Shown: positions 2,826-59,726 of the stretch, one piece after another
How the letters are laid out: every line of letters begins with the position of its first letter
How positions within the stretch are numbered: position 1 is the stretch's first letter
Origin: Roseiflexus sp.
Lineage (GTDB): Bacteria; Chloroflexota; Chloroflexia; Chloroflexales; Roseiflexaceae
NCBI GenBank assembly: GCA_025062325.1
Contig: JANXAL010000140.1
Span: 1-64,000, forward strand
DNA length: 64,000 nucleotides
Direction of reading: 5' to 3'
Made by a program: the position numbers and the translations under genes
The notes under the pieces: generated by a model
The model's input: only the letters and a program-made list of their open reading frames with translations
Databases searched by the model: none
What the model was told of the DNA's origin: nothing

Positions 2826-3295
2826 CCAGATCGCCATACCAATGCTGTGGATGGCGCGCGCCAATAACCCAGCCTGGAGCGGATGCCTACTGCCGGGTGA
2901 GCAACCTGGAACTGGCGTATATGACCCTGTTCGGCTGGTTCGACGCCAAACGCGCGCTCTCTCGCTTGTTCGCTGTCTGGTTCTTCCTCCTATCAGAGAC
3001 GCTCCTACGCCGCCTGCGCTGGCAACCTTCGCACCCGCATTTCTGAAGAGGCACAGAGGACGCCAATGCGCCTGTCTTCTTCGGATCGAGATCGACAACA
3101 GAGACCTCAACGATTGGGCATCCGCTTCAACCTGTCCCCGTTCAACGTGCAACTTCGACGTTCGACGTACAACCTGTCTCTTTACTGAGTACGCGCTTTG
3201 CCCTGTCTACATCCAACGTGCAGCCTTCAGCCTTCCTGCCTTCCTGCCCGCTGTAATCCGCTTTCGACATTTTCCCCTGTTTTCTTTGTTTATGG
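2826..3295 (+). other. Intergenic region with a possible gene-tail remnant
   Basis: In frame from 2882 to a TGA at 3044-3046 there is a 54-codon reading with protein-like character (SNLELAYMTLFGWFDAKRAL, then hydrophobic and Arg-rich). It lacks a start and may be the decayed 3' end of a lost gene, possibly a partner of the methyltransferase. From about 3130 to 3260 the sequence turns into the low-complexity, pyrimidine-rich intergenic style seen elsewhere (repeated TTCAACGT/TTCGACGT words). No complete gene is supported. Confidence 0.35.
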
Positions 3296-3324
3296 TTGAC
3301 AAATAGCATTTATTAGACTATACT
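3296..3324 (+). promoter_or_regulatory. Sigma70-type promoter of the heme island
   Basis: TTGACA (3296-3301), a 17-bp spacer and TATACT (3319-3324). This is the best-matching promoter in the window. It sits about 90 bp upstream of the hmuV-like start and reads into the heme operon. Confidence 0.8.
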
Positions 3325-3327
3325 AAT
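3312..3327. promoter_or_regulatory. Candidate DtxR/IdeR-type operator over the -10 element
   Basis: ATTAG (3312-3316) and CTAAT (3323-3327) form a perfect inverted repeat with a 6-bp centre that covers the TATACT -10 box. TTAG...CTAA half-sites are typical of DtxR/IdeR/MntR operators, and a DtxR-family gene closes this island at 10742. Metal-dependent repression by occlusion of the promoter is inferred from this geometry. Confidence 0.5.
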
Positions 3328-3411
3328 TCCCAACGTTAGCGACTTGTATTGACCATCCTCTGACCTGTCGAATACCACGCGCGGCTCTTTCGCGCCTGGA
3401 TTGGGGAAGCT

Positions 3412-4209
3412 GTGTCTGCTCCAATCATCGAAGCGTGCGCGCTCAGCTACCACGCAGATGGTCGCCGCCTGATCGACGATGTTTCACTGGCAGTCAACGC
3501 CGGTGAAGTTGTGGCGATTGTCGGTCCGAATGGCGCAGGGAAGAGTACGCTGCTCAATCTGCTTGCAGGTGATCTTCGCCCAACGACAGGGCAGGTTCTG
3601 CTGGGCGGCGTCCCGCTCGACCGGATGCGCATCAATGACCAGGCGCTGCGACGTGCAGTGTTGCGTCAGCGCATCAGTGTGACGCTTCCCTTCACCGCAA
3701 TCGAAGTGGTGCTCATGGGGCGCGCGCCGCATCTGCGCGGAAGGGCGGAGGGTCCGGCAGACATGGCGATTGCACAGGACGCTCTTGCCCAAACGGAGAT
3801 GTTGCCATTTGCGCGGCAACTTTTTCCGACGCTCTCCGGCGGCGAACAGACGCGCGCCAGTCTGGCGCGCGTGCTGGCGCAGCAGGCGCCGCTGCTCCTG
3901 CTCGATGAACCAACCGCTGCGCTCGATCTTCGTCATCAGCATGCGGCGCTGCGCCTGGCGCGCGCAACCGCCCAAACCGGCGGGGCTGCCATCATCGTGC
4001 TCCACGACCTCAATCTGGCAGCCGCGTATGCCAACCGGGTCGGAATCCTTCATCAGGGCCGGCTCATCGCCATTGGCGCACCCTGGGACGTGCTGCGTTC
4101 AGAGTTGTTGAGCGATGTCTACGGCGTCGCAGTGACAGTCTACCCGCACCCGCATACGGGTACGCCGCTGTTGCTGACATTCCCTGATTATCCGTCTTCA
4201 CGCACGTGA
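3412..4209 (+). CDS. hmuV: Heme ABC transporter ATP-binding protein
   Basis: The cytoplasmic ATPase of a heme/siderophore-type importer, 265 residues, normal for HmuV. Walker A is GPNGAGKST (38-46), the signature is LSGGEQTRASLARVLA, and Walker B is LLLLDEPTAALD followed by an H-loop (VLHDLN). The start is GTG at 3412 preceded by GGGGA. It is the first gene of a run with substrate-binding protein and permease, in the common hmuVTU set. A promoter with an overlapping palindrome lies directly upstream, so iron control is likely. A siderophore or B12 importer ATPase is possible, but the IsdG-type protein and Ccm-like genes downstream favour heme. Confidence 0.85.
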   Translation: MSAPIIEACALSYHADGRRLIDDVSLAVNAGEVVAIVGPNGAGKSTLLNLLAGDLRPTTGQVLLGGVPLDRMRINDQALRRAVLRQRISVTLPFTAIEVVLMGRAPHLRGRAEGPADMAIAQDALAQTEMLPFARQLFPTLSGGEQTRASLARVLAQQAPLLLLDEPTAALDLRHQHAALRLARATAQTGGAAIIVLHDLNLAAAYANRVGILHQGRLIAIGAPWDVLRSELLSDVYGVAVTVYPHPHTGTPLLLTFPDYPSSRT

Positions 4210-4219
4210 GGAGGCGTAC

Positions 4220-5311
4220 ATGATGCCCTGGAGACGAAACCGCCGTTCACCCGCAGCAGAACGCTGGCTGCGTCAGATGGTCCTTGGGTTCAGCCTGGCA
4301 TGTGCGGCGTTGCTCACCGCATGCGGGACACCGTCGTCCTCCGGCGGAACGCCGCCCGCCGCAACGATAGTTCCAGCTTCTTCGTCTCTCCCGACACCCG
4401 TATCCGCGAGTCCGCCGAATATCATCGAGTTTGTTCCAGGCGAGGCGGAACCGCAACTTCCCGCGACCGTCGTCGATTATCAGGGAGCGCAGGTGACAAT
4501 TACGTCGATTGAGCGGATCGTCAGTCTGAACGGCGATATTACCGAAATCATCTTTGCGCTTGGCATGGGAGATTATGTTGTCGGCGTCGATAGCAGCGCA
4601 ACATACCCGCCCGAACGCACGAAGACGCTGCCAAACATCGGCTACCAGCGGCAATTGAACGCTGAAGGGATCCTGGCGCTCAACCCGACGCTCGTTATTG
4701 GCGATGAGGCTGCCGGTCCGCCTGAGGCGCTGGCGCAGATCCGCGCCGCAGGCGTGCCGCTGGCGATTACTGCCGATCCGCCAACGCTCGAGGCGCCAGC
4801 GCAGAAAATCCGGTTCGTCGCGCAGGCGCTGGGCATCCCGCAGCGCGGTGAACGTCTCGCCGCACAGGTTGAAACCGAGATTACCCGCGCGCGCGACCTG
4901 GCAAGCCGGATAACGAGTCCGCCGCACGTCCTCTTCCTCTACCTGCGCGGCACGGACGTGCAGCAGGTCGCCGGGGTCAGGACGCCGGTTGATGTGATGA
5001 TCACCGCCGCCGGCGGACTCAATGCGGGCGCAGAAGCAGGCATCGTGGAGTTCAAGCCGCTGAGTCCCGAAGTGGTCATCGCTGCGCAACCTGATGTAAT
5101 TCTGGTACTGACGAAAGGGCTGGAGTCGGTCGGCGGCGTCGATGGTCTGCTGACCATCCCTGGTCTCGCTGATACGCCAGCCGGGAAGCAGCGCCGGGTT
5201 ATTGCGCTCGATGACCTCTACCTGCTCGGTATGGGTCCCCGCACCGGGCAGGCGCTTGCCGATCTTGCCACTGCGTTTTACGAGATTGCTCAGCAGGAGA
5301 AGCGACCGTGA
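4220..5311 (+). CDS. hmuT: Heme/iron ABC transporter substrate-binding lipoprotein
   Basis: A periplasmic-type binding protein (363 residues) of the FecB/HmuT group, expected to be lipid-anchored outside the membrane. The N-terminus is basic, then hydrophobic, ending in the lipobox LLTAC with the modified Cys at residue 35, followed by a Ser/Pro/Thr-rich linker. The mature part starts with the typical IERIVSLNGDITEIIFALG strand-helix and continues with the VVGVDSSATYP and NPTLVIGD elements of class III binding proteins. The RBS is GAGGAGG just after the hmuV stop, and tandem ATGs lie at 4220 and 4223. The stop overlaps the GTG of the permease gene. Confidence 0.85.
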   Translation: MMPWRRNRRSPAAERWLRQMVLGFSLACAALLTACGTPSSSGGTPPAATIVPASSSLPTPVSASPPNIIEFVPGEAEPQLPATVVDYQGAQVTITSIERIVSLNGDITEIIFALGMGDYVVGVDSSATYPPERTKTLPNIGYQRQLNAEGILALNPTLVIGDEAAGPPEALAQIRAAGVPLAITADPPTLEAPAQKIRFVAQALGIPQRGERLAAQVETEITRARDLASRITSPPHVLFLYLRGTDVQQVAGVRTPVDVMITAAGGLNAGAEAGIVEFKPLSPEVVIAAQPDVILVLTKGLESVGGVDGLLTIPGLADTPAGKQRRVIALDDLYLLGMGPRTGQALADLATAFYEIAQQEKRP

Positions 5312-6384
5312 GCGCAGCATCGACGGTTCAGACCCAGGCGACGTTGCAGCACCGCGTGGGATGGCGGCGCATCGGGCTGATACCAGCGCTGTTCCTGCTG
5401 CTGTTGACGACTGTGCTTCTCGGTGCAGGGATTGGCGCTGTCGCTGTGCCGCCGGATGTGATCGGCGCTATCCTGCTCAAGAAGATCGGCATCCTGATTG
5501 ATATGCCGGTCAGCGCGCAACAGGAGGCGATCTTCTGGACCATCCGCCTGCCGCGGGTGTTGCTCGGCGTGCTGGTCGGCGCGGCGCTGGCGGTGAGCGG
5601 CGCGCTGCTACAGGGTGTGTTTCGCAACCCGCTGGCTGACCCGGGCTTGATTGGCGTGAGCAGTGGCGCAGCGCTTGGCGCTGTGGCAGTCATCGTTCTT
5701 GGCCTGTCATCATTCGGATTGATGACCCTGCCGCTGGCAGCGTTCCTCGCTGGCACAGCGACGACGCTCCTCGTCTATCGGCTGGCGCAGCGCCATGGAC
5801 GCACCGATGTGGCAACTTTGCTCCTCGTCGGGCTGGCGCTCAACGCGCTGGCTGGCGCAACCACCGGATTGCTGACCTATCTGGCAGATGATGCGCAATT
5901 GCGATCAATCGTGTTCTGGACAATGGGTGGACTGGGAGGCGCACTCTGGGAGACTCTGATCGTCGCCGCACCGTTGATCGGCCTGGCATTGCTGCTGGCG
6001 CCGCACCTGGGGCAGGCGCTCAACCTGTTTGCGCTCGGCGAGATTGAGGCGCGTCATCTGGGCGTAGATGTTGAACGGGTGAAACGCGCAGCCGTTCTGC
6101 TGGCGGCGCTCGCCACCGGCACCGCCGTGGCGCTTGCCGGTCCTATCGGGTTCATTGGGTTGATCGTCCCGCACATCGTGCGCCTGATCGCCGGACCGGA
6201 TCATCGGCTCCTGTTGCCGGCCTGTGCGCTTGGCGGCGCCAGTCTGCTGGTGCTGGCGGATTTGCTGGCGCGCACAATAGCGGCGCCTGCCGAAATCCCG
6301 GTTGGATTAATCACTGCGTTTGCGGGAGGACCTTTCTTCCTGGCGCTGATCCTGCGCGCCAGGCGACAGTATGGCTGGGGATAG
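5308..6384 (+). CDS. hmuU: Heme/iron ABC transporter permease (FecCD family)
   Basis: The inner-membrane channel subunit (358 residues) with about nine or ten hydrophobic segments. FecCD hallmarks are all present: IRLPRVLLGVLVGAALAVSG, then GVFRNPLADPGLIGVSSGAALG, the GLALNALAGATTG segment, and near the C-terminus GPIGFIGLIVPHIVRLIAGPDH and EIPVGLITAFAGGPFFL. Translation is coupled to hmuT through a GTGA overlap. It pairs with the ATPase and lipoprotein upstream. A second, degenerate relative of this permease lies at 8715, which may reflect duplication within the island. Confidence 0.9.
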   Translation: MSAASTVQTQATLQHRVGWRRIGLIPALFLLLLTTVLLGAGIGAVAVPPDVIGAILLKKIGILIDMPVSAQQEAIFWTIRLPRVLLGVLVGAALAVSGALLQGVFRNPLADPGLIGVSSGAALGAVAVIVLGLSSFGLMTLPLAAFLAGTATTLLVYRLAQRHGRTDVATLLLVGLALNALAGATTGLLTYLADDAQLRSIVFWTMGGLGGALWETLIVAAPLIGLALLLAPHLGQALNLFALGEIEARHLGVDVERVKRAAVLLAALATGTAVALAGPIGFIGLIVPHIVRLIAGPDHRLLLPACALGGASLLVLADLLARTIAAPAEIPVGLITAFAGGPFFLALILRARRQYGWG

Positions 6385-56790: not shown

Positions 56791-57330
56791 CTAACACACA
56801 TGATACGCTGGTGTATCCGGAGCCCCATGATCCAGCCAATTGCTCGCCTGATGGATGACAGGATGTACCCACATAACGGCGCAGATGGCGCCAGTTGTAT
56901 TTTTCAAGTGCGCAAGATGTCCAACAATTTTCTGATCCAGCGACAGCACACGCTTATCGGTCTTCAAGGCGGTTTCAATGAGATGAAAATCTTTTGCTAC
57001 TGCTGACATCAGGTTCTGGGTGTGCGGGTTCTGCGTCAGTGCGTTCAGGCAACGCCGACGTAGCTGGGAACTTCTGGCAAGTTTGACCATCTGAACCCGT
57101 CCGGCGCGCTGCATGTCAGTCAGCCATTGCAGGGCAAAGAGCGAAGCATACGGAACCAGACGACCCGAACGCGCTCGCATCCATTCATCTCTGATCTGTT
57201 GGCTCATCGCCAACCGGTGATTGTTGTTCTTGATCGCCAGCAGCGCCAGGCGACAGGCTTCAGGTTCCGGTTTGCCGCTTTCACCGGCAGCGCGAGCAAC
57301 GGACGCATCAACAACGATGGCGTATCCCAT
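56791..57330 (-). CDS. PIN-like-domain protein (putative nuclease)
   Basis: 179 residues. A PIN-like metal site can be proposed from Asp8 (AIVVDASVARAAG), Glu49 (QQIRDEWMRA), Asp114 (SAVAKDFHLIETAL) and Asp132 (VLSLDQKI), in the right order and spacing for a PIN nuclease. The KDFHLIETALKTDKRVLSLD stretch is the clearest part. It begins five bases after the stop of the AAA ATPase gene, with the RBS (GGGGAA) inside that gene's end, so the two form one operon. Unlike VapC it has no VapB-like antitoxin; the ATPase takes that place. Nuclease function is inferred. Confidence 0.65.
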   Translation of the reverse strand: MGYAIVVDASVARAAGESGKPEPEACRLALLAIKNNNHRLAMSQQIRDEWMRARSGRLVPYASLFALQWLTDMQRAGRVQMVKLARSSQLRRRCLNALTQNPHTQNLMSAVAKDFHLIETALKTDKRVLSLDQKIVGHLAHLKNTTGAICAVMWVHPVIHQASNWLDHGAPDTPAYHVC

Positions 57331-57334
57331 GGAG

Positions 57335-58732
57335 TTATTCCCCGGCAGCAGTCAGGTAGTTGTGCATTGCTTCCAGACTGACGGCGCCGAAGTCTACTGG
57401 AACATCGCCGAAGCCGCCGTGCTTGTCCAGTTCGCGGCTCGTCAGGCGACTTGCGCCCTGCTCGTCGCGTTGCAGCCAGTGCAGCATCACCCGCTTGGCG
57501 CCGAATTGCTGCGCTGCGACCAGTTCCTGCAATCCGAGCAGCAATAGTTCGCTGTGCGTCTCGACCACCACCTGGACGCCGCGCATCACGGCGCGGTGAA
57601 TGAGACGCGACATCTGATAGGCGGCGCGTGGATGCAGATGGATTTCAGGCTGTTCGAGGTATACCAGGTCATCGGGCCTCGCTGCCAGCAGTGCAACCGC
57701 GACCGGCAGCGACTGCGAGAGACCGAAGCCAACATCGGCGACGCTGACCATATCGCGCGCCGGCTGCCCGGCGCCTGTTGGCGAGCGCGCCACCTGAATT
57801 TCGACTTCGACATCGCTGATCCGGCGCGCCTCAATGTTCCACGTCAAGCCCAATTCACGCAGATCGTTCTTCAATTGCTTGAGTTCGCTGGCGCCCATTC
57901 GCTGCCAGAAAGCGATCACGCTGGCGACGTAATCCGGGAAAGGACTGGGGAAGTGTCTTTCAACCGCCGTCACCGGATAGGTGCGGCGTGGATTGCCGCG
58001 AAGACCTGGTACGTGGATAATGCGGCGGAGAGAGTTAGCAATATAATTTCGTACAAAATGCTCAGACTGAGGATAGAACCAGTCTATCACCTTCGTTTCA
58101 TTACGAACTCTGAAAGTAACAAAAAGAAAAAATCGGTCTCGTTCGAATTCGGGTTCGAGTGATAACTTTTCGTTTTCAGAGAAGCTTCGATTTTTCTTCC
58201 AGCGGTTGAACTCTTCTTCAAATTGCTCTTGCTGCTCCGGGTTCCAGTCGGGCGACACTGTCATGCTTCGCAATCCTTTGGATATTGTGGCCTTAACAAG
58301 ACGCAGCGGAGTGATGCCCTCTCCCTCCCAAGCTGCGCCAGTGGTGCGCGATATGCGCGAGCGCTTAGCAAGACGCAGTGGAAGCGGAGTAATGCCCTCT
58401 TCATCTTTTTCCCGTTGGACAGCAAATTCGTAGCCGATGCTCCCTCCATACTCGCTGATGACCAATCCCAGCGTGATACTATCACGCTGCTCGCCTGGCG
58501 CAGACCAGACCATTTGGGCAGTGTCGGAGAAAGCCACGTGCGGTCCGCTCATCAGGAGCGGTCCCGGATCGAAGACCGACTCAAGGGTCTGTTTCATCAG
58601 CAGCAGCGCCTGCATAATGGTCGATTTGCCAGAGCTATTGGCGCCCGCAAGGATCGTCAGATCGCCCAGTGTCACCTCGGTGCGATCCCGGAATGATTTG
58701 AAGCCGTCGAGAATAACCGTCTGAATGGTCAT
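57335..58732 (-). CDS. ABC/SMC-like AAA ATPase with DUF3696-type C-terminus
   Basis: 465 residues. It starts TIQTVILDGFKSFRDRTEVT, typical of RecF/OLD-type ATPases. Walker A is GANSSGKST (30-38), the signature-like motif is GFGLSQSLPVAVAL, Walker B is DDLVYLEQPEIHLHPRA, and the D/H-loop is VVVETHSELLLLGLQ. The middle (about 100-280) is a charged insertion. The C-terminus (SRELDKHGGFGDVPVDFG) fits DUF3696. There is no TOPRIM domain, unlike OLD nucleases. Together with the PIN-like gene it makes a two-gene ATPase-nuclease unit. An extended -10 lies just before it, and GGAGG precedes ATG 58732. Confidence 0.85.
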   Translation of the reverse strand: MTIQTVILDGFKSFRDRTEVTLGDLTILAGANSSGKSTIMQALLLMKQTLESVFDPGPLLMSGPHVAFSDTAQMVWSAPGEQRDSITLGLVISEYGGSIGYEFAVQREKDEEGITPLPLRLAKRSRISRTTGAAWEGEGITPLRLVKATISKGLRSMTVSPDWNPEQQEQFEEEFNRWKKNRSFSENEKLSLEPEFERDRFFLFVTFRVRNETKVIDWFYPQSEHFVRNYIANSLRRIIHVPGLRGNPRRTYPVTAVERHFPSPFPDYVASVIAFWQRMGASELKQLKNDLRELGLTWNIEARRISDVEVEIQVARSPTGAGQPARDMVSVADVGFGLSQSLPVAVALLAARPDDLVYLEQPEIHLHPRAAYQMSRLIHRAVMRGVQVVVETHSELLLLGLQELVAAQQFGAKRVMLHWLQRDEQGASRLTSRELDKHGGFGDVPVDFGAVSLEAMHNYLTAAGE

Positions 58733-59726
58733 GGTTGCCTCCGGCGGTATTGTAACACAGGTGAGGGAACAGGCGATTGTTCATCGGTAGCACTGCCTCG
58801 GTCATGGGGCGATCACGCGGGGGCGACTCGGCCTCTCGAGTGCGGGCTTTTTGGGATGCGAAGCGGGTTTGCCTCGTCTCGACACCCTTTTTCCCCCTCG
58901 TCCCCCCTGCCTCCTTCTCCTACCCCTCACAGATGTAGAGTTTTTGGGGTGCAACGGATGTTCTCCGCGTCCTGACGCCCTTTTCCCCCTCATCCCCCCT
59001 CCCCCCTTCTCCCACCAGGGGAGAAGGGGGAGTTGAGGGTCCAGATGCCTCAAACGGGCCATTCAACGTCAGGGCATGGCGAAATCTACCCTCTTGTGAT
59101 GCGGGAGCGACCCGGCCTCTCGAGTACAGGCTTTTTGGGTGCAAAGCGGGTTTGCCGCATCTCGACGCCCTTTTTCCCCCTCATCTCCCCTCCCCCTTCT
59201 CTCACAAGGGGAGAAGGGGGCGTTTGCGCATCCTGATGCCTGAAACAGACAATCAGCATGATTGCCAGAAAAATCCCTATCGGTGAGGGTGACCCAGCGT
59301 GGACGACCTGCTAGGTCGTCTCCACGATGGCGCGGTCCCCGGTTGCGGGGCGATAATGGGGCGGGTGACGCGGTGGAAACATGTTGAATTCGGCGCGACT
59401 GCGGACCGGTCTGAGACCGGCCCCGACAATGGCGAGGTCCTCGGTCGCGGGGCGATGACAGGACGGGCGACCCGCCGGGTCACTCCAACGACGACGCCAA
59501 CATTCCCCGTGCAACGCCTAACATTCCCACGTTCGTTTAATTCGACAACGACTCGGAGACGGTGCAATGCACCGTCTCTACTGCCTCTTCACCTCCGACT
59601 TTCCCACCTTCAATCTTCCCACCTTCAACTCCTCTTGCCTCTCGCTCCTCGCCTCACACCTCCAACGCCATCCCCGCCCCCGCCTTCAACGCCTCATCCT
59701 GCCAATTCTGCGGCTTGCTCCTCGCC
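58733..59726. repeat. 1-kb gene-free gap built from several repeat families
   Basis: Unit A (GGCCTCTCGAGT-CAGGCTTTTTGGG to CTCGACGCCCTTTTTCC) occurs at 58823-58900 and 59107-59190, 284 bp apart. Unit B (ACAGATGTAGAGTTTTTGGG to CGTCCTGACGCCC) at 58925-58980 is shared with 46141-46200. Hairpins of CCCCCTTCTCCC with GGGAGAAGGGGG follow at 59002-59030 and about 59192-59220. 59299-59325 is a hairpin around ACGACCT-GCT-AGGTCGT. Two copies of a CGGTTGCGGGGCGATAATGG-like unit lie at 59321-59374 and 59423-59476. The end is pyrimidine-rich CAACCTTC-type sequence. Confidence 0.7.
58749..58757 (-). promoter_or_regulatory. Extended -10 promoter of the ATPase/PIN-like unit
   Basis: On the minus strand TGT precedes TACAAT (plus ATTGTA at 58749-58754). 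The leader is short (about 10-15 bases) but includes the GGAGG RBS. Confidence 0.4.

Follow-up and report, generated by a model that had tools for sequence, protein, structure and literature searches.

ABC ATPase sensors that work together with a separate nuclease effector are found in several described systems. PARIS, which was found at a hotspot of P4 phage satellites (PMC9122126), consists of two genes, encoding the ABC ATPase sensor AriA and the nuclease effector AriB, a protein of the TOPRIM/DUF4435 type. The AriA ATPase forms a hexamer that sequesters AriB, a tRNase, and keeps it from acting before a phage protein has bound (PMC12409363). Septu and the type I-A retrons join an ABC ATPase, PtuA, to a small nuclease, in this case the HNH protein PtuB, and PtuAB of Septu cuts tRNA-Tyr (PMC13096335). 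In Menshen (NsnABC) the ATPase NsnB is accompanied by an OLD/TOPRIM component and by a protein with DUF262 (PMC10952713). HEC-03 is a candidate system listed in PADLOC, for which no paper on the mechanism was found in the literature; it comprises an ATPase gene and then a gene for a small protein with PIN-like motifs, with overlapping starts, and is also found in IMG/VR contigs. Finally, a PIN fold with four acidic residues is present in the VapC toxins of VapBC, where the partner is a small antitoxin.

The gene pair described here comes from Roseiflexus sp. and was found in a window of 64,000 nucleotides, meaning the whole stretch of DNA that was analysed (contig JANXAL010000140.1). Its features are as follows.

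57335-58732, minus strand: ABC-type ATPase of 465 amino acids, without TOPRIM, based on the open reading frame, Pfam and an AlphaFold2 model
ATPase residues 30-37: Walker A motif, GANSSGKS/T
ATPase residues 333-340: ABC signature, DVGFGLSQ
ATPase residues 358-368: Walker B motif, YLEQPEIHLHP, with Gln at the catalytic-Glu position
ATPase residues 391-394: H-loop, ETHS
56791-57330, minus strand: PIN-fold nuclease of 179 amino acids, the predicted effector, based on the open reading frame, the AlphaFold2 fold and an acidic site of D8, E49, D114 and D132

Both open reading frames are present as a first-pass annotation of this DNA had claimed when it proposed a two-gene ATPase/PIN-like unit. The ATPase gene lies upstream, and the gap to the PIN gene measures 4 nt (57331-57334) rather than the five bases given there. 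The pair is single-copy in its own 4.7-Mb genome, a promoter scan gave no site above chance, and a fold search of BFVD returned nothing below E 0.001.

The larger protein matches the Pfam families AAA_15 (7e-24) and AAA_21 (5e-21), and its AlphaFold2 model (pLDDT 88) describes an ABC head of the SMC/Rad50/PtuA type with a C-terminal helix. Among solved structures, this model resembles SMC heads (Z about 22) and Rad50, along with PtuA from Septu and retrons (Z 18-19.5). Neither the profile matches nor the model contains a TOPRIM domain, and the model has no long coiled-coil arm. Matches to the OLD and GajA models span ATPase segments only, and the C-terminal TOPRIM by which Gabija and OLD are recognised was not found. 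The earlier description of an SMC/OLD-like ATPase lacking TOPRIM holds, but the DUF3696 end that was also reported falls below threshold in the window protein, even though 51 of the 57 family members match it. No paper on DUF3696 in defence was found in the literature.

The Walker A, signature (DVGFGxSQ), Walker B and H-loop motifs are intact, and are invariant or nearly so across the ATPase family. The residue that follows the Walker B acid, at position 361 (57650-57652, minus strand), is a glutamine in 57 out of 57 relatives (YLEQPE). The equivalent catalytic-Glu position is occupied by Glu in OLD (EEPE) and by Gln in PtuA of retron Ec78 (VLIDQIELHLHP). Because a glutamine is always found at this position, the sequence suggests that hydrolysis is slow or absent and that the switch would be set by ATP binding; the invariant residue thereby raises the question of whether binding or hydrolysis acts as the switch.

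The smaller protein is recognised by none of the profile libraries, and weak matches to Pfam PIN, PIN_3 and NYN are seen in single relatives. Its AlphaFold2 model is a confident PIN fold (pLDDT 95.5, pTM 0.90), and the solved structures that it matches best are PIN proteins, VapC among them (VapC21, 5sv2, Z 10.1, 3.4 Å, 132 residues; 7vwo, Foldseek E 2.7e-4). The acidic tetrad occupies the usual PIN places, with D8 after strand 1 (61/61 PIN proteins), E49 in a helix (59/61), D114 before a helix (61/61) and D132 after a strand (60/61). Residues R27, W50, M73, K113 and W154 are also near-invariant. The protein has both the fold and the conserved tetrad that characterise the PIN-domain superfamily, as the first-pass annotation had read from these same four residues; a predicted structure other than a PIN fold, which it had named as counting against the idea, was not obtained. 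The small protein is thus predicted to be a metal-dependent nuclease of the RNA-cutting type, with RNA as the substrate to which the PIN fold points.

When genomes were scanned with the ATPase, 77 loci were recovered, from at least 20 phyla. The PIN gene lies directly downstream on the same strand in 74 of these, with a few PIN genes frameshifted or cut by a contig end, which is far more pairing than expected by chance. The three exceptions are a locus where the contig ends inside the ATPase (L071) and two where the 3' end of the ATPase gene is truncated or frameshifted (L029 and L068), as if one deletion had taken this end together with the PIN gene. Searching with the PIN protein first avoids the bias of an ATPase-first search, and in each of the 36 genomes that gave a match the PIN gene occurs once, at the ATPase. 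Among 350 Chloroflexota searched in this way, 7 have the PIN gene and every intact copy is paired with the ATPase; among 292 genomes of a cyanobacterial sample there are 11, of which 10 are paired and the last is a PIN fragment. The search for co-occurring homologues that had been proposed as a check therefore finds an obligate pair in fixed order, not a lack of conserved pairing. The two genes are mostly separated by -4 to +2 nt, and 24 of 60 pairs show an ATGA-type overlap of 4 nt. The two proteins are co-inherited, in that their distances correlate (Spearman 0.73, Mantel p 0.0005), a value to which shared ancestry alone contributes. Since the two genes stay joined in at least 20 phyla and are also carried in phage genomes, the ATPase and the PIN protein almost certainly form a two-component unit and very probably act as one machine.

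The ATPase profile identified 18 loci in IMG/VR, 12 of them close relatives; the pair is kept in 11 of the 12, and the contig of the remaining one stops within the locus. These 11 (pro)virus contigs carry the pair inside phage genomes at cargo sites, which lie before HNH/TerS/TerL genes, between the tail genes and the tape measure, or beside an integrase. According to PHROGs, the small and large terminase subunits, HNH and integrase-like genes lie beside the module in contigs of the L153/L154/L158 type, tape measure and tail genes surround it in L159, an integrase and a repressor-like gene are found in L161, and an integrase in L163. Antiviral systems are known to come from the cargo hotspots of temperate phages (PMC9122126), and carriage by phages is what speaks most strongly for a part in conflicts among genetic elements. 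The PIN protein has no match among the plasmids of PLSDB (72,556 plasmid records) or the INPHARED phages, and a phage ATPase used as query against both sets finds only distant DUF3696 proteins. A PIN-first scan of the viral contigs with the window protein found none; the alignment was too divergent for patterns.

In cellular genomes the pair is sporadic, being present in 1 of 40 near relatives and in about 2-4% of the genomes sampled in two phyla (Chloroflexota and the cyanobacterial sample). A quick tree of the ATPase contains 20 named phyla, with Chloroflexota in four places; the window protein groups with Chloroflexus, myxococcotal and Saprospiraceae sequences (98% SH-aLRT), its nearest relative being from Chloroflexus. 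The reading frames adjoining the ATPase were assigned by reading to the PIN protein, a small membrane protein (start 56690), a gamma-carbonic-anhydrase-like protein and a gamma-glutamyltransferase-like protein. A sister genome of the same genus, G004, carries the last three genes in identical order and lacks the pair, so the pair was either gained here or lost in G004 as a unit.

The same comparison bears on the small membrane gene, which exists as previously noted but does not belong to the unit in which it had been placed: as G004 retains this gene, with the flanks on either side, although it lacks the pair, the gene is part of the host locus, and a third component is rejected for this genome. 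The G004 copy (L100, about 4180-4310) is interrupted by an inserted repeat. The repeat-rich DNA that had been seen beside the unit corresponds to a dispersed repeat at about 58832-59290, which is present dozens of times in this genome and has many copies in other genomes of the genus.

Because the pair is sporadic, spread across phyla, lacking at the syntenic position of G004 and carried at phage cargo sites, a role in conflict or defence is probable, and the proposal of a candidate defence module gains genomic support. The explanation that we favour, with reasonable though not strong confidence, is that of a mobile two-component conflict module, most likely anti-phage, in which a sensor ATPase would restrain and release a PIN RNase. 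By analogy with PARIS and Septu, the ABC ATPase would act as both sensor and regulator, with ATP-bound heads engaging as dimers or higher oligomers, and this assembly would form a complex with the PIN protein and hold it inactive. On sensing a phage component or a disturbed nucleotide state, the ATPase would free or activate the PIN protein, which would then cut RNA, most likely tRNA or rRNA, leading to a stop in translation and abortive infection. It is the architecture that is seen here, and this architecture with a PIN nuclease predicts restraint, a trigger, RNA cleavage and translation arrest; for this specific mechanism of restraint and release, drawn from analogy, we consider the chances to be about even.

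The PIN protein could instead be a VapC-like toxin and the ATPase its dedicated antitoxin, in a strict toxin-antitoxin pair that is kept for the stability of mobile elements and not for phage sensing. The VapC toxins that head the fold matches, the order of regulator first and toxin second, and the presence of the pair in prophages are all in keeping with such a role. However, the PIN neighbour in 74 of 77 loci is not the small DNA-binding antitoxin of type II VapBC but an ABC ATPase of 430-465 amino acids with all its nucleotide motifs conserved. Moreover, in the analogous PARIS system loss of either gene is non-toxic (PMC9122126), and the plasmid records, where addiction modules abound, gave no match, so that this explanation appears unlikely.

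A further possibility is a pair for RNA processing or stress that has no part in defence, in which the ATPase would load or regulate a PIN RNase, or a FEN-like nuclease, on host RNA or DNA, and which has spread by transfer. The flanks of the window pair are largely housekeeping genes, and the Cyanobacteria mostly cluster in the ATPase tree (2 changes, against 6.7 after shuffling), a pattern expected of a gene that is in part vertically inherited. The position of the pair in defence islands had been put forward as a check, and the outcome does not help the defence reading: for the two closest genes on each flank, taken from 36 genomes, PADLOC tallies show no clear excess over random regions, a comparison of family tallies only, with the regions drawn mostly from the same genomes. 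This lack of an obvious tie to defence islands weakens the defence reading, although not all defence systems lie in islands (PMC13092281). The low frequency of the pair in sampled genomes and near relatives and its carriage at phage cargo positions nevertheless speak against a role outside defence, as do the closest ATPase models, which all come from defence or candidate defence systems, though the library holds nothing else. A host RNA-processing role is accordingly improbable, and the conflict module remains the preferred explanation.

The ranking of these models places NsnB of Menshen nearest to the window ATPase (1.5e-47, full length over residues 3-448), followed by HEC-03B (9.3e-33, with the best stretch only 291-448; all 57 members match at 1e-15), PDC-M55A and AriA (1.6e-27). 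That the pair is no more than a diverged form of HEC-03 or Menshen, covered by existing names, is suggested by these ATPase matches and by the PIN-like motifs of the HEC-03 small partner, but is very improbable, as the PIN protein of the window does not match HEC-03A even at E<=1, 0 of 61 PIN members match it at E<=0.1, the profile comparison is weak (hhalign probability 13%), and no DUF262 gene or OLD/TOPRIM component is found among the adjoining reading frames, where a single PIN partner stands. By the tests available the pair belongs to neither system, and on paper it would work like HEC-03, PARIS and Septu. PARIS and Septu share with it the combination of an ABC ATPase and a nuclease, and PtuA also the glutamine described above, but the partner here has a PIN fold in place of the TOPRIM/DUF4435 of AriB or the HNH of PtuB. 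HEC-03 resembles it in gene layout and has homologous ATPases, but these are only 24-31% identical and the small proteins have no significant cross-profile match.

Neither PADLOC nor the literature provides an established name for this exact pair, with naming covered up to PADLOC 2023, and the earlier statement to this effect stands; HEC-03 represents a named candidate with the same logic and another PIN-like family. No ATPase-PIN pair of this kind was found in the literature, although Krishnan et al. 2020, in their classification of ABC ATPases, may mention such pairs. The pair is thus real, widespread and, as far as checked, unnamed, and despite its presence in at least 20 phyla and in temperate phages, the defence library searched (PADLOC) has no entry that matches the two genes together. 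With it, the combination of an ABC ATPase sensor and a swappable nuclease, TOPRIM in PARIS and HNH in Septu, comes to include a PIN nuclease, and the versions carried by phages would allow direct tests in laboratory hosts. A bolder and more doubtful reading is that of an unnamed defence family of at least 20 phyla, in which the Gln-bearing ABC ATPase would serve as an ATP-gated clamp, not a motor, that unleashes a PIN RNase on infection, and which together with HEC-03 would form an "ABC-PIN" branch parallel to PARIS and Septu.

Some more distant viral ATPase relatives belong to other pairings. Three of them (L164-L166) are HEC-03 in both components, with small partners that match HEC-03A at 1e-18 to 7e-76. 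These partners (L164:4300-4812, L165:2604-3143 and L166:3326-3808, all on viral contigs) have PIN-like motifs, namely IDTNV and late Asp residues, and HEC-03 is for this reason probably a second ATPase-PIN family. In another three (L167:7741-8748, L168:7509-8378 and L169:7540-8427) the ATPase relative is followed by a protein of 289-335 amino acids without a PADLOC family, which is another unnamed pairing. A similar two-gene cargo, encoding a protein of 308-311 amino acids and a membrane-like protein of 181-192 amino acids, lies beside the module in L152 (4173-5709) and L160 (8194-9684), and L160 also has an SMC-like ATPase (3075-4688) with an adjoining HNH-like gene (4905-5687).
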